NCBI GenBank assembly: GCA_018402485.1
Contig: JAGYIY010000002.1
Coordinates: 62,001 to 126,000 of the forward strand
Origin: Roseivirga sp.
Lineage (GTDB): Bacteria > Bacteroidota > Bacteroidia > Cytophagales > Cyclobacteriaceae
Direction: 5' to 3'
DNA length: 64,000 nucleotides
The position numbers and the translations under genes were made by a program. Below, one piece after another: positions 7,088-18,412 of this stretch (positions are counted from its first letter, which is position 1; the number at the start of each line of letters is the position of its first letter). A model generated the notes under the pieces. That model did not search any database, was not told the DNA's origin, and saw only the letters and a list, made by a program, of their open reading frames with translations.

Positions 7088-7621
7088 TTAGTTATTCACT
7101 TCTACTGGAAACTTTACCGAGGTGTTACCCCATGCAATTTCAATATTGGCTTTGTCTTTTCCATTTTTATCAAAATCAGTCATCATAATAAACATGGTCT
7201 CAACGGAGTGATCCAGTATTGTAGGAGTCGCCATAAAACGGATGACATCAGAAGATTCTTCATAATTGGTCCCCCAAGACTTTTCCGTATTAATGATGAT
7301 GGTCCACTCATTATCTCCAGGAATTGTGTACAGAGAATACTCACCTGCCGGTAAGGCTTTGCCTCCAAGTTTGACATCGTTATTGAAATTGATTTTGGTA
7401 TTGGCATTCGCACCGGTCCTCCATACCTGTCCATTTTGAGCCAATGAGCTCATCTTTCTACCATCTAAGCTTGGCCTAGAGTAAATCAATTCCATTTCTG
7501 TATTGCCGATCATCTGTTTTATGGTGACTTGCGGACTTGCAGCAGGACCTCTTTGAGCCATGAGAACTGGTGAACTTAGCAGGGCACAAAAAGCAATTAA
7601 TAAGGCTTGTTTTTTCATCAT
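7088..7621 (-). CDS. Secreted DUF2911 protein
   Basis: A 177-residue exported protein with signal peptide (cleavage near LMAQ) and one DUF2911 domain: IYSRPSLDGRKM, VWRTGANANTKI, LPAGEYSLYTIPG. It is a paralogue of the next gene downstream and lacks the latter's helical extension. Family function is unknown. A Bacteroidota-type promoter (TTTG, 18 nt, TAATTTAG) lies about 64 nt upstream of the start and could drive both genes. Confidence 0.85.
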   Translation of the reverse strand: MMKKQALLIAFCALLSSPVLMAQRGPAASPQVTIKQMIGNTEMELIYSRPSLDGRKMSSLAQNGQVWRTGANANTKINFNNDVKLGGKALPAGEYSLYTIPGDNEWTIIINTEKSWGTNYEESSDVIRFMATPTILDHSVETMFIMMTDFDKNGKDKANIEIAWGNTSVKFPVEVNN

Positions 7622-7988
7622 TTTAAATTTTTTAGTTGTCTATTCTAACTGATTTCTTTTGAATAAGTTTGGTTTTGACACAAGCTAAATTAAGTAAAAT
7701 ATTCTACGAACAAAGAAACCTGGTACATGTTACTAAAGGGTTTTTAAGTTAAAATTTTTGCACCTAACATGGAGAATAAGATACAGCGACTTATGTGGCC
7801 CGGTTATTTTAGCCTAAATTGTAAGAGTTTGTCTAACGCAGAATGAACGGAATTCTAAGGTAGTAATTGAGAAGAAAAGAAAAGAAACTGATTCCGATGA
7901 AATAAATTGTGGTTTCTGAAAGAATAGGAGTAGATTATGCAAAAGAAGATACCTTAAAACCTTAGCGGTTTTATATGAAAGATAACCC
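7622..7988. other. Intergenic region between divergent genes
   Basis: The 367 nt between the DUF2911 operon and the reductase gene hold the promoter of the DUF2911 genes (7685-7714) and an AT-rich stretch before the reductase. No further gene, RNA or repeat was recognised. Confidence 0.5.
7685..7714 (-). promoter_or_regulatory. Bacteroidota-type promoter of DUF2911 genes
   Basis: On the minus strand TTTG, 18 nt, then TAATTTAG, one mismatch from the TAnnTTTG -7 consensus. Transcription would start around 7678, giving a leader of about 57 nt. Confidence 0.45.
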
Positions 7989-8924
7989 ATGGATAAGCAG
8001 AAGATAAATGCAATGATTGCCGCAAAGACCTGGTCGGCACAACCTTGGAAACAAGGTTTGGAAAAAATGCCTTCATTTGGTACCGTTGATGTCTGGCCTA
8101 AAGCCCAAGACCTTGAAACCATTGACGCTTTATTTGTTTGGAAACCCCTTGATCGGGGTGTTATTGAAAGAATGCCTCAATTAAAATGGATAAGCTCTTT
8201 GGGCGCAGGTGTAGATCACCTCATGAATGATCCTCAAATCCCTCGGCACATACCTATTACACGTATTGTTGATCCTTGGCTAGCTCGAGACATGAGCAAT
8301 TATGTGATTATGGGCATTTTAATGCATCAAAGAAGTATGGATGAACACAAGATCAACCAGCAAAAAATGGATTGGAACCGCTTGCCTTATCACCCATTGA
8401 AAATTGGTGTACTAGGCCTAGGAGCTTTGGGTGGTCATTTGGCTCAACAATTGGTCGATCTTGGCTTTGAGGTGCTAGGCTATAGCCGCACAAGAAAACA
8501 CATTGAAGGAGTGAAATCTTTTGATGAAAATGAAATGGATGCATTTTTATCTGAACCTGACGTGTTGGTAAATTTATTACCGATTACATCACAAACAACC
8601 GATGTTCTTGATCTTAACTTTTTCGCTAAAGTAAGAACGGGTACCTATCTTATTAATGTGGCTCGTGGCAACCATGTGGTTGAAGAAGACTTGGTAAATG
8701 CTTTGGATCAAGGTCAGTTGTGCGGAGCTTTATTGGATGTTTTTCGTGAAGAACCCCTTCCTAAAGAACACCCTTTTTGGAATCATCCAAAAATCAAAAT
8801 CACTCCTCATGTTGCCAGTGTAACTTCACCAGAATCAGCCATAAATTTGCTTGAGAATAATGCCAAAAGACTGATAAAAGGACAATCTTTATTACATCAG
8901 GTAGACATAGAATTGGGCTACTAA
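7989..8924 (+). CDS. GhrA-type glyoxylate/hydroxypyruvate reductase
   Basis: A 311-residue D-isomer-specific 2-hydroxyacid dehydrogenase of the GhrA branch. The nucleotide-binding loop is VLGLGALGGHLAQQL followed by GYSRTRK, where the Ser-Arg after the second strand favours NADPH. Catalytic Arg (NVARGNH), Glu (FREEPLP) and His (ITPHVAS) are all present. It should reduce glyoxylate or hydroxypyruvate in the cytoplasm; the natural substrate may differ. Its stop codon overlaps that of the convergent BNR gene in the tetranucleotide CTAA. Confidence 0.85.
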   Translation: MDKQKINAMIAAKTWSAQPWKQGLEKMPSFGTVDVWPKAQDLETIDALFVWKPLDRGVIERMPQLKWISSLGAGVDHLMNDPQIPRHIPITRIVDPWLARDMSNYVIMGILMHQRSMDEHKINQQKMDWNRLPYHPLKIGVLGLGALGGHLAQQLVDLGFEVLGYSRTRKHIEGVKSFDENEMDAFLSEPDVLVNLLPITSQTTDVLDLNFFAKVRTGTYLINVARGNHVVEEDLVNALDQGQLCGALLDVFREEPLPKEHPFWNHPKIKITPHVASVTSPESAINLLENNAKRLIKGQSLLHQVDIELGY

Positions 8925-9976
8925 TCAATGAAGTACAAGGCGGTGACTTTGCTCAAATGATGGCTCAAATTCTGCCACGACTGACCTGCATCCTCCGACA
9001 CATAAACATTACCATGATTGGTACCAAAGGCCATATCGAGCCCTTTCTTGACCATTCCCTTGCGTAGTACAACATCGAAGGCTAGAGAATCGGGTAACCC
9101 TTGAGTGATTTTTTCCCAACGATTGCCAAAATCTTGGGTATGGTAAACGGATAATCTATGGTTTAGTGGAACGCGATGGTCATCGGCAGCAACAGGAATC
9201 ACCCAGGCATTGCCGGGATGCGCTTCCTCTATCTCCAAAGCAAAACCATAAGACAGTTCGTTTACCTTATCTGATACAGATTGCCAGTATTCGCCATTGT
9301 CATAAGAAAGGTAAATGCCACAATGGTTTTGTTGCCAAAGGAGGTCCGCTTGTTTGGGATGACGTTTGATACAATGTGGATCGTGACCAACATCAGCCAC
9401 AGCATCTGGCAAGAAAGGAGAGGAGATGCCTTTGTTTTGAGATTTCCAGGTAGTTCCAGCATCGTAGGTAACAAATACACCAGCACAGCTAATGCCAATC
9501 AACCATTCATCAGGCCGCTTAGGATGGATCAATAAAGTATGAAGAAAAGGATTTATGCTGCCTTTTCCACCACCTCGCCAATGCGACCTTGACGGATGAT
9601 TTTCTAATCCTTCAATAGCATGAAAGGATGTACCGTTATTTTCAGAAATGAACAGGCCGGCAGGCTCTGTACCAATAAAAACTTGCTTTCGACCATTCAA
9701 TATCCGACTTTGTATTTCCCAAACGTTTTTCAAAAGGGTTTTAGCTGTTGAAAACTTAGGAGCAGTAATTTCCTGAAACTCGTTTCCTTGATTTACGGAG
9801 CGATAGATTTTTACACCCCAGTGCAAATGCCTGCAACTGACCCACCAGTGACCTTCTACATCAACATGAAAACAGCTTACGGGTAAACCATCAAAAAATA
9901 GATCAGAAAAGCCCCATGATGAACCAAGTTTGTTGTATTGAATCAGACCTTTATCGGTGGCAATCATTAACTTCAT
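8921..9976 (-). CDS. Cytosolic BNR/Asp-box beta-propeller, last gene of moaA-moeA operon
   Basis: A 351-residue protein with no signal peptide and at least five Asp-box-like turns (SENNGTSF, TYDAGTTW, SYDNGEYW, TQDFGNRW, SEDAGQSW), so a sialidase-like propeller. It opens with MIATDKGLIQY and carries CRHLHWGVKIYRS, features I recall from a family of cytosolic BNR proteins often encoded next to a small MoaD/ThiS-like protein ending in GG. Such a protein is encoded at 16282 here. The gene starts 10 nt after moeA, so it is probably in the MoCo operon. It is unlikely to be a true sialidase: no lectin domain or export signal is seen. Function unknown. Confidence 0.8.
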   Translation of the reverse strand: MKLMIATDKGLIQYNKLGSSWGFSDLFFDGLPVSCFHVDVEGHWWVSCRHLHWGVKIYRSVNQGNEFQEITAPKFSTAKTLLKNVWEIQSRILNGRKQVFIGTEPAGLFISENNGTSFHAIEGLENHPSRSHWRGGGKGSINPFLHTLLIHPKRPDEWLIGISCAGVFVTYDAGTTWKSQNKGISSPFLPDAVADVGHDPHCIKRHPKQADLLWQQNHCGIYLSYDNGEYWQSVSDKVNELSYGFALEIEEAHPGNAWVIPVAADDHRVPLNHRLSVYHTQDFGNRWEKITQGLPDSLAFDVVLRKGMVKKGLDMAFGTNHGNVYVSEDAGQSWQNLSHHLSKVTALYFID

Positions 9977-9986
9977 ATTTCAAACA

Positions 9987-11207
9987 TTACATTCCTATAA
10001 ATGTCTTTTTATACGAAAGGTAAGGGAAACGCTCACCAGCCTTGAAGTGAACCCCTTCTTCTGGCAGCATGATGAAACCATGGGTCTGTGACAGATTGGA
10101 AAAATCGCCTGATCCATGCCCTTTTTTAGGCAGTGCAACCATTTCATTGTTAGGGGATTTTACCAATGCTACTGCAAGAAAATAAGTCAATTTGGGTTCA
10201 AAATAAACATCTTCACCCAATGTAACATATTCAAAAACAATAGGTTGTTTGAGCATTGTGCGCAAATAGATTTGAACATAAACCAAAGCACAGACGAAAG
10301 AGGAAACCGGATTTCCTGGTAAGCCAAAGACAGGCTTGCCTTCTTTTGAAGTACCGAACCACATGGGTTTACCTGGTCTTTGTTTGATTTTATGGAAATG
10401 CTTTTGAACTCCTAGCTTTTCTAAAACTTCAGGTAAATAATCAAACTTCCCTTTAGAAACTCCTCCAATAAAAATTAGCAGATCAAAGTCTGTCAATAGG
10501 TCAAGAATATGTTTTTGCATCAAGTCAGCATCATCTTCTACATGGAAGGGTGTTACTTCTACATGCAGTACCTGAAGAATAGCTTGAACGCCATAATTTC
10601 CTGACCTACGGATTTGATGGGCTTTCGGTAGTTCATCGATTCCAACAAGCTCATTGCCAGTAGTGATGAGCGCTACTTTTGGCAAGGCCAAGACCGACAA
10701 AATGCTTTTACCCGCTGATGCCGCCACAATCAGATCAGGAGCAATTAAAGTGACCCCTTTACTTAATAAAACTTCGTTCTGTTTTTTGTCTTCTCCTTGA
10801 AAATGAATATTCTGAAACTCTTTCACATCTTCAACATGAACAACAGCTAGTTCATTCATGATGCTAATGTCCTCATAACGAATAACCGTATCAACCCCAT
10901 GAGGCATAATGGCACCGGTCATGATTTGCACGCAGGAATTTGAGGACTGCATGGTATATTTTGGTTCTCCAGCAGCACATATTTTTTCTACGAGAAATTG
11001 ACGCTGCCCTTGAATAAAGGTTTTGTAATTGATAGCTATGCCATCCATTGTCACCCGATCGAAAGGAGGGAAGTCTCGATCTGCTAAAATATCTTCATCC
11101 AATACACGCCCCACACAGTTCTCAATCCTTACATTTTCACTTTTGTGAAGTAAAGTGTGTTGTTGAAGTATTTGTAAAGCCTCTTCCGAGGAAATCATAT
11201 CATTCAT
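9987..11207 (-). CDS. moeA: Molybdopterin molybdenumtransferase MoeA
   Basis: A 406-residue MoeA, which inserts molybdate into adenylylated molybdopterin to give the molybdenum cofactor. Visible landmarks are FDRVTMDGIA (FDNSAMDGYA in E. coli), MTGAIMP, LITTGNEL, IFIGGVSKGKFDYLPE, KQRPGKPMWFG and GLPGNPVSSF, followed by the C-terminal domain IV. It sits 10 nt downstream of moaA and 10 nt upstream of the BNR gene. A separate MogA/MoaB adenylyltransferase is not in the window. Confidence 0.95.
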   Translation of the reverse strand: MNDMISSEEALQILQQHTLLHKSENVRIENCVGRVLDEDILADRDFPPFDRVTMDGIAINYKTFIQGQRQFLVEKICAAGEPKYTMQSSNSCVQIMTGAIMPHGVDTVIRYEDISIMNELAVVHVEDVKEFQNIHFQGEDKKQNEVLLSKGVTLIAPDLIVAASAGKSILSVLALPKVALITTGNELVGIDELPKAHQIRRSGNYGVQAILQVLHVEVTPFHVEDDADLMQKHILDLLTDFDLLIFIGGVSKGKFDYLPEVLEKLGVQKHFHKIKQRPGKPMWFGTSKEGKPVFGLPGNPVSSFVCALVYVQIYLRTMLKQPIVFEYVTLGEDVYFEPKLTYFLAVALVKSPNNEMVALPKKGHGSGDFSNLSQTHGFIMLPEEGVHFKAGERFPYLSYKKTFIGM

Positions 11208-11217
11208 TTTTTATCGA

Positions 11218-12210
11218 TTAACCCCCAATGGTTGCCATAGATTCAAAAGCACTACCAGAATCTTTTTGTTTTTCAGACTCAAAACCGTTCCTAGTCCTGC
11301 GGCCAAATAGAAACAAAAACTTATCCTTTATGTTCTCGTCAGAGGCTCCCTCTCGCATAAAATCACGCATACTAAAACCGCCATTTTGATACAAACATGT
11401 CTTTAGTTCACCCTTTGGAGTCAGTCGAATGCGATCGCAAGTGGCACAAATGCTTCGGCTATAAGCAGGAATTACCCCAATGGTGCCCGGTGCATCAGCT
11501 ACTCTATAATTATAAGAAGTAGAGCTGCTATGGTCGACCATTTTTGTGAGTTGGGGAAAGGTTTTTTGGATATGGCCGAGGATGTATTTGTAATTCCAAC
11601 GAATGGCTTGATAAGCCTTGCTACCTCCGTTAAAGGGCATTTCTTCAATGAATCTCACAGACACTTTGTCTTTCAAGGTAAGTTGACAAAGCCCTAGTAT
11701 ATCGTCTACATTTTGGTTTTCCATAACTACTGCATTGATTTTAGTAGTTATGCCTTGGTTTAATAGCTCCTGGTAATAAGCCCAAACCTTATCAAACTCA
11801 TCTCTTCTTGTGATTTTAGCAAACCTTTTAGGGTCTAATGTATCTAAACTGAGGTTGACCGCATGAATACCCATGCGCTTCATTTCAGTGATGGTGCTCA
11901 ATGGTGCTGTGCCATTGGTCGTAATACTCAACTTGTTCACACATGGTAGGTCAATCACCTTTTGCATAAAGGGTAGCAAATCTTTCCGAACAAAAGGTTC
12001 ACCACCTGTAATGCGTACCTTATCAATACCCATTTCAGATAAAATGCGGGTAAGCCTAAGCATTTCTTCATAACTAAGAATTTGTTCTTTATTCTGCCAT
12101 GGCAAGCCTTCTTCAGGCATGCAATAAAAGCATCGCAAATTGCATCGTTCCGTTACACCTAATCGGAGATAGCGCAATGGGCGCGAATGATTATCGTACA
12201 ACAAATTCAT
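11218..12210 (-). CDS. moaA: GTP 3',8-cyclase MoaA
   Basis: Radical SAM enzyme of the first step of molybdopterin synthesis. The N-terminal cluster motif is CNLRCFYC, the C-terminal cluster cysteines are in CATCDRIRLTPKGELKTC, and the protein ends in the GG tail needed for activity (SMATIGG). I start it at ATG 12210; the track's GTG at 12249 adds 13 residues before the usual NLLYDNHSRPLRYLRLGVT opening. It heads the moaA-moeA-BNR operon. MoaC, MoaE and ModABC are not in the window. Confidence 0.95.
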   Translation of the reverse strand: MNLLYDNHSRPLRYLRLGVTERCNLRCFYCMPEEGLPWQNKEQILSYEEMLRLTRILSEMGIDKVRITGGEPFVRKDLLPFMQKVIDLPCVNKLSITTNGTAPLSTITEMKRMGIHAVNLSLDTLDPKRFAKITRRDEFDKVWAYYQELLNQGITTKINAVVMENQNVDDILGLCQLTLKDKVSVRFIEEMPFNGGSKAYQAIRWNYKYILGHIQKTFPQLTKMVDHSSSTSYNYRVADAPGTIGVIPAYSRSICATCDRIRLTPKGELKTCLYQNGGFSMRDFMREGASDENIKDKFLFLFGRRTRNGFESEKQKDSGSAFESMATIGG

Positions 12211-12252
12211 TTTTCGTTTTGAGCTTTTAAAATATAAGCAGACATTCACTTT

Positions 12253-13239
12253 ATGAAGGAATGGATACCAAGGATAAAGGAATTAGTTGACAAAGAAAAG
12301 CATTTTGCTGTAGCCAGAGTAGTCAAGACTTGGAGAAGTTCACCCAGACCTGTGGGGGCAACAATGCTCATCTTGGCTTCTGGGGAAATGTTTGGCTCCG
12401 TAAGTGGTGGCTGTGTTGAAACTTCAGTAGTGAGGAGCGCTCTACATGTCATCAATTCAGGCGAACCGGAACTGATTCATTATGGCATTGCTGATGATGA
12501 AGCTTGGGAAGTCGGATTGAGCTGTGGCGGTAAACTAGATGTATTGATTCAACCCGATCGGGATTTCTCATGGCACTCATTGTTTAATGCGTTTGAACAA
12601 AAAGAATCTTTCCATCTCATTACTTCTGTAGAAAATAATTTTGAACAATTTTCATCACTAAACGGCCATTATACTTTAACAGACGAAATGAACGAGCATG
12701 TTGTATCGGGTAAAAGTGGCCTTTTGGAAAAGGAAGGGAAATTGTATTTCTTACATACTTTTCCAAGACCTTACACGCTGCTCTTGATTGGTGCAGCGCA
12801 TCTGACTTCTGAATTATTAACCTTGGCAGCATGGCATGAATTTGAAACCATTGTGATTGATCCGCGTGACCAGTTCGTTAAAAATAGTTTCAGATCAAAT
12901 AAGGCAGACCAAATGTATGCTGCTTGGCCTCAAGAAATTTTACCGAAACTATCCTTGAATGAACAAACCTTTGCTGTGGTTTTATCTCACGACCCAAAAA
13001 TAGATGATCCTGCTTTGCAAATGCTTCTTTCTTCTGATGTGGCCTACGTGGGTGCATTAGGCAGTCGTAAAACGCAAGCTAAACGGGCTGATCGACTCTT
13101 GAAACAAGGCGTTTCGAAAGAAAAGTTAAATAAACTCGATGCACCCATAGGAATTGATATTGGCTCTCAGTCTGCCAAAGAAATTGCGTTGAGTATCATG
13201 GCCGGTATCATACAAGTTAAAAACAGAAAACACAATTAA
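12253..13239 (+). CDS. XdhC/CoxI family molybdenum-enzyme maturation factor
   Basis: A 328-residue two-domain protein. The N-terminal XdhC_CoxI domain shows GSVSGGCVE and GLSCGGKLDVLIQP; the C-terminal Rossmann-like domain shows LLIGAAHLTSELLTLA, GALGSRKTQAKR and PIGIDIGSQSAKEIALSIMAGI. In characterised members it binds sulfurated MoCo and delivers it to xanthine dehydrogenase or related hydroxylases. No such hydroxylase is encoded here, so the client lies elsewhere. It is divergent from moaA with only 42 nt between starts, supporting a link to MoCo supply. Confidence 0.9.
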   Translation: MKEWIPRIKELVDKEKHFAVARVVKTWRSSPRPVGATMLILASGEMFGSVSGGCVETSVVRSALHVINSGEPELIHYGIADDEAWEVGLSCGGKLDVLIQPDRDFSWHSLFNAFEQKESFHLITSVENNFEQFSSLNGHYTLTDEMNEHVVSGKSGLLEKEGKLYFLHTFPRPYTLLLIGAAHLTSELLTLAAWHEFETIVIDPRDQFVKNSFRSNKADQMYAAWPQEILPKLSLNEQTFAVVLSHDPKIDDPALQMLLSSDVAYVGALGSRKTQAKRADRLLKQGVSKEKLNKLDAPIGIDIGSQSAKEIALSIMAGIIQVKNRKHN

Positions 13240-14093
13240 ATATTGTCATAGGCACCATTTAACCATTGCCAAAATCGTTTGATTCGACTCTTTTTGACAG
13301 ACTGAACAGTAGTTGTCGGTATTTTCCGAGGTACATCTTCTTTTACTTTGGTTGTACTTTGTTGCTTAGCCTTGAGAGGTTTTTGTGCTTCTTTCTTTTT
13401 TGCCAATTGCTTTTCATAATGCAATCTGCGTTTTTCCTTTAATTCTTTTTGTTCCTGCTGTTTCCTTTTCCAAGCTAATCTCTCTTCTCGCTGGCGCTGC
13501 TCCTCTAAACTGAGTTTTTGACCCTTTGCCTTCTTTTTAGGTCTCTTCGTTTCTGAATTTTGCTTAGCCCCCTTAATAATTACCTCTTTTGTATTGTGCT
13601 TCGGTTTCTCACCATTGGTTTCTGGAATCTCTATTTTACCTAATACTTTAAGCCCTTCCAATTTAGGTTTATCAGTGGTAATGATTTCAACATCTTTGGT
13701 TTGCTCTTTATACTCCTTTTCTAAGCTGATGACTTTTGGTACACTGGGTTGATGATCCTCGGTTGCTTTTTTTGGGGTTTCATCTTGTTTGCTCTCGATA
13801 TGGAGCTCATTATGCTCTTCTAAGTTATGCTCATGGTTAGAAAATGACCCTGCAGTAACATGAGAGGAATCTTCAGAAGGTTGGGAGGGGGGGGCTTGTA
13901 AAAAATGGGCATTCTCATTTGAAAAAACAGACGTCTTTTCATTGGCCTGAAAATGCTTAAGTAAAAATAAAAGTTCCTCTTCTTTGAGTTTAATATTGGG
14001 GTGTGGGTTTACGGTACGGAAATTTTCGCTTAGCAACTCTACTACCTCGGTGCTCTTCACTTCAAATTTTCTCGAAAACTGACCCAAACGCAT
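13236..14093 (-). CDS. Stand-alone IF-2 N-terminus-like protein, no GTPase
   Basis: A 285-residue, highly charged protein. Its first 50 residues (MRLGQFSRKFEVKSTEVVELL) look like the N-terminal domain of Bacteroidota initiation factor IF-2, and KLEGLKVLGKIEI near residue 145 resembles a second IF-2 segment. The rest is Lys/Glu-rich coiled coil and disordered sequence (EEQRQREERLAWKRKQQEQKELKEKRR), ending RFWQWLNGAYDNI. There is no G domain and no later IF-2 domain, so it cannot act as IF-2. The stop codons of this gene and xdhC overlap by 4 nt. A role in translation or nucleic-acid binding is only inferred. Confidence 0.65.
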   Translation of the reverse strand: MRLGQFSRKFEVKSTEVVELLSENFRTVNPHPNIKLKEEELLFLLKHFQANEKTSVFSNENAHFLQAPPSQPSEDSSHVTAGSFSNHEHNLEEHNELHIESKQDETPKKATEDHQPSVPKVISLEKEYKEQTKDVEIITTDKPKLEGLKVLGKIEIPETNGEKPKHNTKEVIIKGAKQNSETKRPKKKAKGQKLSLEEQRQREERLAWKRKQQEQKELKEKRRLHYEKQLAKKKEAQKPLKAKQQSTTKVKEDVPRKIPTTTVQSVKKSRIKRFWQWLNGAYDNI

Positions 14094-14174
14094 AAATCAA
14101 ATATTTTTTGCAAAGGTAACCAACAGAATTCTCAGATACCAATAAAACTAATGGATTGCTTATTTATAAAGCCA

Positions 14175-15110
14175 TTACTTAACATATCCGGCAATGTGTC
14201 TTTCCTTTACTTCTTCATAAATATCTGCAATGGTAACCAATAGCCCTGTTTCTTCCACACCTCCAAAATCAGGGTTGAGAGCTGTACCAAAGGTCAGCAT
14301 GGTAGCAGATAAATTCATGTAAATATTCACCAGAGGAGGAATGCATTCTCCTCTTTCACGGATTAGCTTTTGCAAATGACGAAATGCGTTTTCGAAAGGG
14401 GGCATGCTCGAAAAGTATTCTTTGAACAAGGTGTCGTCAAAATGCGCTAAAAGTTCCGATTTGGGAACGCAAAGACTGTTTTTGTCAGGGAAATAATAGG
14501 ATAAGAAAGACAGCAACAAGTCTCTGGCTTCTTTTTCATAGCGCTGATACATGGTTACTTTTCCGAAGAAATATTTCATTTCCGGATAGTTGACAATGAT
14601 TGCTCCGAGGCCATCCCAAATATTGGCCAAAGCAAATAATCCTTTCCGAGGATTGATAGTAGGTTGAAAGCTAGGCTGTACCCAAGACCTACCCAATTCA
14701 ATAGCATAAGGTAGATAATGTTTTTTCATATGATCTGAGAATTCAAAATATTTGGAGGTGGATAGGTGATAAGTATCTGACTGTGCATCGTATGCCCTCG
14801 GGCCAGTAATAAAACGATAGCCTCCAATGATTTCTTTTTCTTCTCGACTGTAAACAATCAATTGTTCGTAGCATTGGTTTTGTGTATCGTATTGATCGAT
14901 ATCCAGTTCATGCCCCGTACCCCCTCCAGCGCCGCGGAAGGAAACTTCACGTAAACGAGCAATTTCTTGCATGGTATGTGGAGAATTGTGGTGATTTAAG
15001 ATATAAATCTCATTGCTTCCTTTATTCGTAAATCTTACAAATCGCTCTTCATTCAGCTCACGCTCAATCAATTTACGATCCACAGGTAGTACAATTTTTT
15101 TTTCAGCCAT
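14175..15110 (-). CDS. glsB: GlsB-like N-acyltransferase (glycine lipid synthesis)
   Basis: A 311-residue GNAT-fold protein of the hemolysin-like acyltransferase type related to OlsB. Visible pieces are the N-terminal REVSFRGAGGGTGHELDIDQYD, the core strand EKEIIGGYRFITGP and YAIELGRSWVQPSFQ. In Bacteroides thetaiotaomicron GlsB attaches a 3-hydroxy fatty acid to glycine to give commendamide, which GlsA then O-acylates. It begins 4 nt after the adjacent GlsA-like gene, so the two are one operon. Assignment rests on family resemblance and the pairing. Confidence 0.8.
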   Translation of the reverse strand: MAEKKIVLPVDRKLIERELNEERFVRFTNKGSNEIYILNHHNSPHTMQEIARLREVSFRGAGGGTGHELDIDQYDTQNQCYEQLIVYSREEKEIIGGYRFITGPRAYDAQSDTYHLSTSKYFEFSDHMKKHYLPYAIELGRSWVQPSFQPTINPRKGLFALANIWDGLGAIIVNYPEMKYFFGKVTMYQRYEKEARDLLLSFLSYYFPDKNSLCVPKSELLAHFDDTLFKEYFSSMPPFENAFRHLQKLIRERGECIPPLVNIYMNLSATMLTFGTALNPDFGGVEETGLLVTIADIYEEVKERHIAGYVK

Positions 15111-15114
15111 GCTC

Positions 15115-15948
15115 TTATGCTTCTTTGCTCTTTGCTTCTGTTTGCATTTGATAAACTTTTCTCTTCATCCATTCTGCCCATTCCTTCTCACTTTTTGATT
15201 TATCAAAGGTTTCTGGTGAAATAGGTCTTCCAATCGTAATTTTGATGGTAGAGCCCCTTTGTTTGAAAAATTCATCCAATAGGTAAAACATCTCTATATT
15301 GAGCTTTATGCCAATCAACTTTCTAAAATTTGCCAGCCGATAAAACTTATCCGTCAATTTTCCTTCAATATACACAGGAATCAGAGGTTTCTGATATTTT
15401 TTTGCTCTCGTGATGAAAGTTTTCTTCCACTCTAAGTCTTCAATCTTTCCTTTTTGCTTTCTGCTGACCAATCCTGCTGGAAAAACGAACGTTGCCCCAG
15501 AAGCAGCGAATTGTGCCTCTACCGCTTGTAATGATTGCTTCGCATTTTTACCCAATTTATTTACTCCAATAAAGCGGCTTTTTAAGTTGGTCACATACAA
15601 AAGCAAGTCATTCACAATAAATTTTATATCAGGTCTTACATCGTTTAATGAGGAAATAATTGCAATGGCATCAAAGCCTCCTAAGGGATGATTACTAACG
15701 AAAATACAGCTTTCAGGAGCAGATGGGACGTTTTCCTTGCCCTTTAATTCTAAGGTCACATTGAAGTCTTCCATCAATGTTCTACTGAACTGGAAGGCAT
15801 CGTAATTTTCAGTTTTACGCATAAAAGCATTGGTCTTCTCTTGATGAAGTACACTTTCTAAATAGTGTATAACCCACCTAGGTATCCATTTAAGTAGTTT
15901 AGCGTTCCTTTCTTTTATGATCCTTCTTACGTCAACGAAATTTTCCAT
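15115..15948 (-). CDS. glsA: GlsA-like PlsC-family O-acyltransferase
   Basis: A 277-residue lysophosphatidate-acyltransferase-like protein. The acyltransferase histidine-aspartate motif reads SNHPLGGFDA, with five residues between His and Asp instead of four, and a second block is FVFPAGLVSRKQKGKIEDLEW. With GlsB it should O-acylate N-acyl glycine to the mature glycine lipid in the inner leaflet. It is the first gene of a two- or three-gene operon (glsA, glsB, perhaps the IF-2-N-like gene 81 nt further). A plain 1-acylglycerol-3-phosphate acyltransferase is the alternative. Confidence 0.8.
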   Translation of the reverse strand: MENFVDVRRIIKERNAKLLKWIPRWVIHYLESVLHQEKTNAFMRKTENYDAFQFSRTLMEDFNVTLELKGKENVPSAPESCIFVSNHPLGGFDAIAIISSLNDVRPDIKFIVNDLLLYVTNLKSRFIGVNKLGKNAKQSLQAVEAQFAASGATFVFPAGLVSRKQKGKIEDLEWKKTFITRAKKYQKPLIPVYIEGKLTDKFYRLANFRKLIGIKLNIEMFYLLDEFFKQRGSTIKITIGRPISPETFDKSKSEKEWAEWMKRKVYQMQTEAKSKEA

Positions 15949-16281
15949 GCAGGCGGCTTCCTCAAACTGTGAAACAATATTAACTTCAATTCAATAACAA
16001 TTCAAACCATTGTTGTAGCTTCATACAATTTAAATCTATTACAGAGGTGCATACCATAAATGAATAAGTGAAAATTATGACAGTCAAACTTTTTCAATAG
16101 TAGTGAAAGAAATAATTTTACTCTGAATATTACTAAAGAAAATAAATTGATTTCTTAACAAATTAAACACAATGGGGTTAGATGAGTTAGGCATTAGTGT
16201 CCCATTTTATGATAAAGATTTTTTGAAAGATAGAAGCCTTCCCCCTCTGTTATTCGAGAAAAAATTAAGTAGTTTACAGAA
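15949..16281. other. Intergenic region with a 46-codon ORF
   Basis: AT-rich 333 nt between divergent genes. A 46-codon plus-strand ORF (16172-16312, beginning MGLDELGISVPFYDKDF) overlaps the start of the MoaD-like gene in another frame. Its second half changes to unremarkable composition after the overlap, and I see no homologue or ribosome site, so I do not call it a gene. No RNA or repeat was seen. Confidence 0.35.
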
Positions 16282-16554
16282 ATGCCAATTGTTAAATTTA
16301 CATCTAATTTAAAACGTTTTTTCAAGGACATCCAAACCACTGAACTACCAGGTAATAATGTTCAGTCTCTGATTGCTGCCGCAGAAAAGCATTACAAAGG
16401 CCTGAGTGGTTATCTGCTAGATGATTGTGGACATTTACGTCCCCATATCAATATTTACATTGGTAATACCTTGATTAAAGATAGGAAAGGGTTAACCGAT
16501 AAGGTAAAAAGTGGAGAGTCGGTCTATATTGTTCAGGCGATTTCTGGAGGTTGA
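16282..16554 (+). CDS. MoaD/ThiS-like ubiquitin-fold protein ending in GG
   Basis: A 90-residue beta-grasp protein that ends ...QAISGG, the Gly-Gly tail used by sulfur carriers after adenylation. The body (LSGYLLDDCGHLRPHINIYIG, DRKGLTDKVKSGESVYIVQ) matches the MoaD-like family I recall as neighbour of cytosolic BNR proteins (RGYVLDDxGxLRxHV... pattern) better than MoaD of molybdopterin synthase. A BNR gene of that type lies 6.3 kb away in the moaA-moeA operon. No MoeB/ThiF-like activating enzyme is in the window. Sulfur carrier or conjugated modifier are both open. Confidence 0.85.
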   Translation: MPIVKFTSNLKRFFKDIQTTELPGNNVQSLIAAAEKHYKGLSGYLLDDCGHLRPHINIYIGNTLIKDRKGLTDKVKSGESVYIVQAISGG

Positions 16555-16628
16555 TATGCCAGAAGGTTTAAAATAAATGTCTTTTAAAGGCCACTAAGGG
16601 CTATTTGCAGAATATTTATCATAAGCAC

Positions 16629-16658
16629 TTTGATTCCCATTTATTCCACCTACCTTTG
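16629..16658 (+). promoter_or_regulatory. Promoter of DEAD-box helicase gene
   Basis: Exact Bacteroidota promoter: TTTG, 18 nt, TACCTTTG. Expected start of transcription is near 16665, leaving a leader of only about 17 nt before the TTG start codon at 16682. It supports that unusual start. Confidence 0.7.
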
Positions 16659-16681
16659 TAACACATTTTAACAGTTACTTA

Positions 16682-18412
16682 TTGAATTATTTTTCCGAGC
16701 TAGGCCTGTCGCAAACCATTTGTGAAGTACTAGAACAACTGGGTTTTGAGAAACCAACTCCCATCCAAGAACAAGCCATCCCGCTATTACTCCAACATCA
16801 TACAACTGATTTTATTGGTTTAGCCCAGACGGGTACGGGTAAAACAGCTGCTTTTGGTCTTCCACTCATTGAATTAATGAATGAAGATCAAAAGACGACG
16901 CAAGCCATTATCATGTCTCCTACGAGAGAATTAGGTCAGCAAACGGCCAAACAGATTGATGAGTTTGTTGTCAGACATAAAAAGCTGAATGTAGAAGTCG
17001 TTTATGGTGGTGTAGATATCACCCGTCAAATCAAAGCCCTAAAGAAGCCTACTCAAATTGTAGTAGCAACCCCCGGTCGTCTGATCGATTTGATGAAGAG
17101 AAAAGCCATCAGCCTAAGCGATGTGAAATACGTCGTTTTAGATGAAGCGGATGAGATGCTCAACATGGGGTTCAAAGAAGATATTGATGAAATCATATCC
17201 CATACCCAAGAAGATCGTGCCATTTGGCTATTTTCGGCCACTATGCCTCGTGAAATTAGAGGAATCATAGATAAATACATGAGTAACCCTCACGAGGTGA
17301 GCGTAGATGCTGGTCAGAAAAGTAACAAAGATATTTCGCATGAATATGTGGTTACCAAATCGGCCAACAAATTAGCTGCAGTAAGACGGTTTTTAGATAT
17401 CCAGCCAGATATGCGAGGTATTATGTTTTGCCGTACGAAACGGGAAACGCAAGAAATTGCCGACCAGTTTTCAACTTGGGGTTATGGAGTAGAGGCTTTA
17501 CATGGTGATTTATCACAGAACCAACGTGATGCAGTCATGAAGAGATTCAAAAGTCGATCCATGCAATTACTCATCGCTACCGATGTAGCAGCTCGAGGGA
17601 TAGATGTCAACGACCTTACTCATGTATTTCACCACACATTGCCCGACCAATTAGACAGTTACACACACAGAAGTGGACGGACAGGAAGAGCAGGTAAAAA
17701 AGGAATTTCTTTGGCCTTTATCAATCCACGAGAAGGTAGGAAGATCAAAGACCTAGAAAGAAAAATCAAGGTAAACTTTGAATTGGTGGAAGTGCCTAAT
17801 AAGAAACAAATGAAGTACAGTCGACTCAACCATTGGAGCAAGTTGATACTTCAAACAAAAGTAGCACAAGATGTTGAAGAGATCATCGCTAACTTAGATC
17901 AAGATTTAGTTAATTTAAGTCAAAAGGAACTTTTAGAGCGTCTAATCACTTTACAGTTAGACCATTTATCTACAGATGGAGCAGGAGGAGAACCCAACGA
18001 CCTCAATGAGGAGACAGGGCAAGCCCAGCGAAATGAAGAAAGAAATAAGCCGTCCGATCCCAATGCAGATCAACGTTTTTTTATCAATGTAGGTGAAATA
18101 GATGGTGTAACAAAAGCTGACTTGATTCACTTTGTAACAGATGTAGCTAACATCGATTCCAAGAAAATCAATCAAGTGGACGTGAAGAAAAACTGCAGCT
18201 TTTTTTATGTAGATAAAGCAGAGAAAAAAGGCTTTGCCGAAAAATTCGATGGCATAATGGTGAATGAGCGCGCCATCCGTGTGAACGAAGATCATGATGG
18301 ACCACCACAAAGAAGACCTCGCAAGGAGTTCAATCATGGTGGGGGCGGTGCCTCTAATTTCGGAAGAAAAAGAAGAAACGATAGACCAAAATCGCGCTCA
18401 CGAAGAAGATAA
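16682..18412 (+). CDS. DEAD-box RNA helicase with DbpA-type RNA-binding domain
   Basis: A 576-residue ATP-dependent RNA helicase of the CsdA/DbpA group. Seen in order: Q motif (FEKPTPIQEQAI), Walker A AQTGTGKT, PTRELGQQ, DEAD box in VLDEADEML, SAT in FSATMP, and HRSGRTGRAG. Residues about 455-530 form a DbpA-like RNA-binding fold (RFFINVGEIDGVTKADLIHF), then a basic Arg-rich tail. The start is TTG: the frame gives MNYFSELGLS, the family's normal opening, and no in-frame ATG lies nearby. With the next two genes it forms an RNA-remodelling, cold-related set. Confidence 0.93.
   Translation: MNYFSELGLSQTICEVLEQLGFEKPTPIQEQAIPLLLQHHTTDFIGLAQTGTGKTAAFGLPLIELMNEDQKTTQAIIMSPTRELGQQTAKQIDEFVVRHKKLNVEVVYGGVDITRQIKALKKPTQIVVATPGRLIDLMKRKAISLSDVKYVVLDEADEMLNMGFKEDIDEIISHTQEDRAIWLFSATMPREIRGIIDKYMSNPHEVSVDAGQKSNKDISHEYVVTKSANKLAAVRRFLDIQPDMRGIMFCRTKRETQEIADQFSTWGYGVEALHGDLSQNQRDAVMKRFKSRSMQLLIATDVAARGIDVNDLTHVFHHTLPDQLDSYTHRSGRTGRAGKKGISLAFINPREGRKIKDLERKIKVNFELVEVPNKKQMKYSRLNHWSKLILQTKVAQDVEEIIANLDQDLVNLSQKELLERLITLQLDHLSTDGAGGEPNDLNEETGQAQRNEERNKPSDPNADQRFFINVGEIDGVTKADLIHFVTDVANIDSKKINQVDVKKNCSFFYVDKAEKKGFAEKFDGIMVNERAIRVNEDHDGPPQRRPRKEFNHGGGGASNFGRKRRNDRPKSRSRRR

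Follow-up and report, generated by a model that had tools for sequence, protein, structure and literature searches.

A ThiS/MoaD-fold protein encoded beside a seven-bladed propeller in many bacterial phyla, and its split form in a Roseivirga genome

Genes of the window and their families

The window, a 64,000-nucleotide stretch of the Roseivirga sp. genome (GCA_018402485.1, contig JAGYIY010000002.1, positions 62,001 to 126,000), encodes an Asp-box (BNR) propeller and, 6.3 kb away, a small ubiquitin-like protein (Ubl). The two proteins belong to a two-gene Ubl-plus-propeller module that is widespread in many bacterial phyla; in the window this module is split, both families being present but their genes not adjacent (Table 1). 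The window genome (2.57 Mb, 84.6% complete) is labeled G000; labels of this type denote genomes in the set of the window's relatives, and L-type labels denote individual loci.

The propeller begins with MKLMIATDKGLIQYNK and has no visible signal peptide, and gaps of 10 nt separate it from moeA and moeA from moaA. The xdhC gene diverges from moaA and has the same position in relatives. The listed GTG start of moaA abuts xdhC, and the true start is likelier to be an internal Met (MNLLYDNHSR) slightly downstream. These open reading frame (ORF) coordinates match a preliminary description of the window, made from the sequence alone, which had reported a cytosolic propeller as third gene after moaA-moeA with 10-nt gaps, and a small ThiS/MoaD-like protein ending in AISGG at a distance of 6.3 kb.

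The window propeller matches the Pfam families Sortilin-Vps10 (6.6e-15) and PSII_BNR (1.6e-6), while the Ubl, with the C-terminus VQAISGG, matches ThiS (PF02597; 1.9e-6, 28.8 bits against a cut-off of 22.5). No NCBIfam model scored above its cut-off for either protein; the best NCBIfam match of the Ubl was SAMP1, with 34 bits for the window protein (33-41 overall) against a cut-off of 60. The two ORFs are more than chance ORFs because the propeller matches the solved structure 3b7f (2e-53) and both proteins have relatives across phyla. The profile of the propeller family matches 3b7f over its full length (E 1.5e-110), giving the family one solved member, and 3b7f is also the first-ranked Foldseek match of a model of a relative's propeller (TM 0.86 by target length), followed by GH74 xyloglucanases. 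This structure (YP_299179.1, Reut_B4987) is an Asp-box propeller of Ralstonia eutropha with seven blades and five Asp-boxes, and its function is given as "not known" (PMC2716378).

Table 1. Features of the window around the propeller and Ubl genes
Feature	Position	Strand	Size, family match, or context
Seven-bladed Asp-box (BNR) propeller, type A paralogue, last gene of the molybdenum cofactor (MoCo) operon	8921-9976	-	351 aa
moeA	9987-11207	-	Pfam MoeA_N/MoCF/MoeA_C
moaA	11218-12249	-	TIGR02666 (4.9e-95); Pfam Mob_synth_C
xdhC-type molybdenum (Mo)-hydroxylase maturation factor	12253-13239	+	Pfam XdhC_C, XdhC_CoxI; synteny with relatives
GNAT and acyltransferase genes	14175-15948	-	Upstream flank of the Ubl locus in relatives
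Ubl (ThiS/MoaD fold) with GG end, BNR-linked clade	16282-16554	+	90 aa
Site of the type B propeller in relatives, gene lost in the window	16555-16681		Synteny with L130, L133, L135, and L143
DEAD-box helicase	16682-18412	+	Downstream flank of the Ubl locus

Pairing of the two families and identity of the Ubl

The pairing was examined in 80 named contigs chosen by the propeller alone through an alignment query; a single-sequence contig scan with the window propeller had given no matches. Outside Streptomyces and Kitasatospora, the Ubl gene lies directly beside the propeller gene in every contig (29/29), and these contigs come from nine named phyla (Acidobacteriota, Pseudomonadota, Nitrospirota, Myxococcota, Planctomycetota, Verrucomicrobiota, Chloroflexota, Fidelibacterota, and Actinomycetota). 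The preliminary description had stated that homologues of the two are often direct neighbors in other phyla, and the observed association is stronger than that. The Ubl is mostly upstream of the propeller, the exceptions being Actinomadura and one Acidobacteriota locus, in which it is downstream. No Ubl was adjacent to the propeller in the Streptomyces and Kitasatospora loci or on Rhodobacterales plasmids; on a Rhodobacter plasmid (L008:3589-5770), the solo propeller adjoins the ergothioneine genes egtB and egtD. Two Ubl copies (7429-7698 and 9720-9989) lie 2 kb apart on the Nitrospiria contig L025, one of them adjoining the propeller.

Among plasmid records, 12 of the 13 with a Ubl also carry the propeller, and the thirteenth, from Aliarcobacter, is a CysM-Mec-CysO locus. 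On this Aliarcobacter plasmid (L020:1041-8270), genes for a cysteine synthase, an M67 peptidase, and a CysO-like protein occur near a family 2A encapsulin whose cargo is a cysteine desulfurase. In Mitsuaria and Pseudomonas aeruginosa, the two neighbors are annotated as "MoaD/ThiS family protein" and "exo-alpha-sialidase". The P. aeruginosa propeller is PA1356, identified by its N-terminus in PMC6085387; the Ubl lies 20 nt upstream and is, by inference, PA1355, and there are no MoCo neighbors. No dedicated study of the P. aeruginosa pair was found in the literature, although one transcriptome paper states a role in biofilms.

Clustering of all ORFs within 9 kb at 38 loci recovered the Ubl, the propeller, and their antisense shadow frames as recurring clusters; apart from a few small clusters, no third conserved neighbor was found outside the synteny specific to Streptomyces. 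There were no natural Ubl-propeller fusions among the loci examined and no PADLOC match to anti-phage defense. Within the set of 59 relatives, a Ubl of the BNR-linked clade is present in 25 of the 26 genomes with a propeller versus none of the 33 without (Fisher test, 9e-16 by genome and 4e-7 by genus, values that still include kinship). The phylogenetic co-occurrence on which the preliminary description had made its proposed pairing depend is therefore present. The one propeller genome lacking the Ubl is G033, whose propeller falls among the solo Rhodobacterales type in the propeller tree (98/92).

The Ubl is placed in the ThiS/MoaD fold by its PF02597 match, the beta-grasp fold modeled for a relative, and the terminal GG, which is exactly C-terminal in nearly all pair Ubls across phyla. 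Two propeller-linked Ubls have extra residues beyond the GG (L084:9690-9989 and L082:9717-9989) and would need trimming before activation, and a Ubl-like ORF directly behind the propeller in Nonomuraea (L013:6069-6380) ends in LPALA, without GG. The window genome has two ThiS-family genes above cut-off. The second lies 2 kb beyond the end of the window and is directly followed by moaE (G000:C10:128253-128579) in the gene order mobA-moeB-moaD-moaE-sufS-sufU, whereas no moaE lies beside the window Ubl. In a tree of 86 Ubls (90 alignment columns, deep forks being weak owing to the short alignment), the window Ubl falls inside a 59-row clade of propeller-linked Ubls (95/95), with a 27-row clade for its own family (100/96), and MoaD (99/88) and actinobacterial CysO (99/97) form separate clades. 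MoaD is thus excluded as the identity of the window Ubl by the separate moaD-moaE and by the tree, in agreement with the preliminary description, which held that the protein is not the molybdopterin synthase subunit and proposed looking for moaD/moaE elsewhere in the genome. CysO is likewise excluded, as the window Ubl lies outside the CysO clade and no CysM, Mec, or ThiF is encoded around 16 kb in the window.

The pair resembles known systems in which a GG-ending Ubl is encoded beside the enzyme that uses it, such as CysO-CysM of Mycobacterium and BexX/CysO of Amycolatopsis (PDB 3dwg and 4n6e), whose CysO proteins are the closest solved folds to the Ubl. A model of a relative's Ubl is closest to CysO, BexX-bound CysO, and SAMP1, and also matches MoaD. 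However, actinobacterial CysO has ThiF, CysM, or Mec as neighbors, its partner is not a propeller, and it ends in A(V/I)AGG rather than the QA(L/I)SGG of the pair Ubls. MoaD-MoaE shares with the pair the fold, the terminal GG, and a tight gene pair, but is separated from it by the points given above. SAMP1, an archaeal ubiquitin-like modifier of similar fold, is the best NCBIfam match yet stays below the 60-bit cut-off, and we know of no propeller partner for it. Nor, to our knowledge, has a propeller fold been described as the dedicated partner of a ThiS/MoaD-type Ubl. Operons of Ubl, E1, and JAB genes, including ThiS/MoaD-like proteins outside thiamine and MoCo synthesis, were cataloged by Iyer et al. 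(2006; PMC1779556), whose main text names no partner of the propeller, BNR, or sialidase kind; unlike those operons, the module lacks E1 and JAB. No publication describing the pair was found in the open-access literature, although the link would be visible in gene-neighborhood databases and may thus have been noticed by others who did not publish it.

Propeller paralogues, molybdenum genes, and the invariant pocket

In the propeller tree, the window propeller belongs to type A (100/97 and 99/97), which is the sister clade of type B. Type B lies directly after the Ubl in relatives, and in several genomes this pair is flanked by an acyltransferase gene and a DEAD helicase, the order Ubl, BNR-B, DEAD being kept in the four loci named in Table 1. 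The window Ubl retains both flanks, and the helicase gene follows it after just 127 nt. Because so little is left between the preserved flanks, the type B gene has been precisely lost at this site, a conclusion independent of genome completeness. The propeller and Ubl of the window are not ancestral partners; the cognate of the Ubl is type B, lost here. A Ubl with intact GG is nevertheless retained in every genome seen with type A only (G000, G002, G003, and G017). The Ubls of these genomes form a loose subclade (91/92) that also holds those of G026 and G020, which is consistent with a change of partner but is not proof of it. Type A differs from other propellers at D8, H198, Y243, and N320, and is a propeller duplicate that joined moaA-moeA-moaC and became fixed in the MoCo operon of this genus.

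In each of the 17 congeners that carry type A, moaC is the gene immediately upstream, in the order moaA-moeA-moaC-BNR with xdhC divergent, and in G004, G006, and G014 the Ubl lies between moaC and type A. The moaC of the window genome is outside the MoCo operon (G000:C1:1335941-1336345). An xdhC gene is found beside the propeller in G026, G027, and G029, with SufS/SufU beside or near it in G023 and G027 and MoeB in G026, and G003 encodes the single run Ubl-coxMSL-coxG-coxD-coxE-xdhC-moaA-moeA-moaC-BNR, in which xdhC denotes an xdhC-family gene. Ahead of the Ubl, G003 (L163:5103-5546) and G026 (L171:940-1407) each encode a small membrane-like protein in which an IPKC motif is conserved, in both genomes beside xdhC. 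The tie to molybdopterin or sulfur chemistry proposed in the preliminary description thus holds inside the window's family, where type A belongs to the MoCo operon, but not in general. Even within the family, MoaC occurs about as often with the propeller (25/26 genomes) as without it (10/11; p=0.5). MoaA, found in 32 of 34 genomes searched, 33 of which were reached via propeller loci, is common anyway.

Across 80 propellers of all types, about ten polar residues are essentially invariant (K9, R130, H146, S163, H201, Q216, H218, D265, R268, and R305), including three His, three Arg, and one Lys. In the secondary structure of the AlphaFold model of L069, H146 and H201 are at inner-strand starts, and K9, S163, Q216/H218, D265, and R268 are in B-C turns. 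In propellers, these positions make up one face around the central channel. The invariant residues look like a ligand or catalytic pocket on that face. Conservation of K56, C164, D199, W214, W258, and D301 is confined to the large paired clade. As judged from this conservation, the sialidase annotation does not appear to be supported, because the pocket has no invariant Glu or Tyr; only one Asp is universally invariant.

The contact between the two proteins was modeled with AlphaFold as a single chain of Ubl, 20-residue linker, and propeller, obtained by reading through the stop codon of the L069 Ubl (44 alignment rows). The model reached a mean predicted local distance difference test (pLDDT) score of 90.8 and a predicted template modeling (pTM) score of 0.88. 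Since this exceeds the value of about 0.80 at which we estimate that an undocked Ubl would cap the pTM, the model suggests, weakly owing to the linker and to the use of pTM without predicted aligned error, that the Ubl docks on the propeller.

Possible functions of the pair

The reading that we tentatively prefer, at less than even confidence, is that E1-charged Ubl docks on the propeller and gives sulfur to a substrate in the pocket. The GG end of the Ubl would be charged by a MoeB-type E1 common to Ubl and MoaD (MoeB is encoded in the window genome), the charged Ubl would dock on the face bearing the invariant residues, and the sulfur would be handed to the substrate in the pocket in a manner comparable to MoaD-MoaE, ThiS-ThiG, and CysO-CysM. 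Type A would be a version specialized for the maturation of MoCo or of Mo hydroxylases. The window's only Ubl of this kind would by now work with type A, owing to the loss of the type B propeller with which it was first paired. We infer charging, docking, and sulfur transfer, and favor E1-charged sulfur delivery because the conserved neighbor of the GG-ending Ubl in those three systems is the enzyme that uses it. A more specific form, in which the propeller takes sulfur or another group from a dedicated Ubl and one duplicate supplies the sulfido ligand of CO-dehydrogenase-type Mo hydroxylases, we consider unlikely; according to PMC4240915, it is not known where the sulfur for CO dehydrogenase maturation comes from, and XdhC-type maturation obtains sulfur via a cysteine desulfurase (PMC2997495).

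Several observations weigh against sulfur delivery by a charged Ubl. The linked model leaves the GG tail disordered (pLDDT <50 from residue 88), although it is moderately ordered in the Ubl modeled alone and the linker may prevent its insertion; placement of the tail in the propeller cavity, a check proposed in the preliminary description, accordingly finds no support in this model. The pocket may also act without a Ubl, as the Streptomyces and Rhodobacterales propellers share it and have no adjacent Ubl. Among the 38 loci, those from beyond the window's family show no recurrent E1, desulfurase, or other sulfur or molybdenum gene accompanying the pair. Finally, G001 (99% complete, 4 contigs) has the Ubl and type B, and no ThiF, MoaA, or MoaC was found in it. 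Compared with G013, the nearest relative, synteny ends right before the point where the MoCo cluster would lie, and the G001 contig runs on with different genes, so that the absence is likely a real deletion rather than a contig gap; the right flank of the cluster was not found in the examined stretch of the contig, and a whole-genome search gave no orthologue of a MoCo-flank protein. G001 retains genes for Mo-hydroxylase large subunits (L230 and L231). Because the loss looks recent and these genes remain, G001 weakens an E1-dependent function but does not kill it. MoCo as an obligate partner is rejected by G001 together with the equal frequency of MoaC in propeller-free members of the family.

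The strongest alternative is a non-covalent adaptor role, in which the Ubl binds a propeller enzyme or scaffold as a subunit or acts on it as an allosteric partner, with neither sulfur chemistry nor conjugation. The pair persists in G001 without any E1, the module itself includes none, the linked model suggests docking with the tail free, and ubiquitin-binding propellers of eukaryotes are described in the literature. Conservation of the exact C-terminal GG is not obviously needed by a plain adaptor, and we regard this alternative as doubtful.

Also unlikely, and more so than an adaptor, is that the Ubl modifies proteins or amino acids and that the propeller is its hydrolase or reader, comparable to Mec, the JAMM protein that acts on CysO. 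The closeness of the Ubl to SAMP1 and CysO would suit such a role, as would the invariant H146, H201, and H218, which may bind metal, and the residues to be trimmed in L082 and L084; however, the module has neither E1 nor E2, and we know of no propeller isopeptidase. A solo role for the window's type A propeller in the maturation of MoCo or Mo hydroxylases, with the window Ubl as a relic of the former type B pair, seems to us quite improbable. The constant tie to moaC with a Ubl usually not adjoining, the existence of solo propellers, and the four positions at which type A departs from type B would all fit, but the Ubl keeps its GG in all genomes seen with type A only and adjoins type A in G004, G006, and G014. 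A glycosidase or sialidase with an incidental Ubl neighbor, as suggested by the annotation in plasmid records, the resemblance to GH74 xyloglucanases, and the three invariant Arg, is very improbable given the adjacency conserved in many phyla, the lack of a signal peptide, and the absence of invariant Glu or Tyr alongside a single universally invariant Asp.

Bacterial ThiS/MoaD-type Ubls have largely been understood through the enzyme encoded beside them, and the Ubl of the pair has a clear conserved partner. The pair occurs in bacteria that are tractable in the laboratory and has no described function; for the partner family, a structure (3b7f) with the function entry "not known" has existed since 2007. 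The gene run of G003, which joins the Ubl, CO-dehydrogenase-type and maturation genes, moaA, moeA, moaC, and the propeller, opens the sulfur donor of that maturation to a direct test. If sulfur delivery from the charged Ubl to the propeller is true, the pair would represent a new class of Ubl-dependent enzyme, built on a seven-bladed propeller and distributed across many bacterial phyla.

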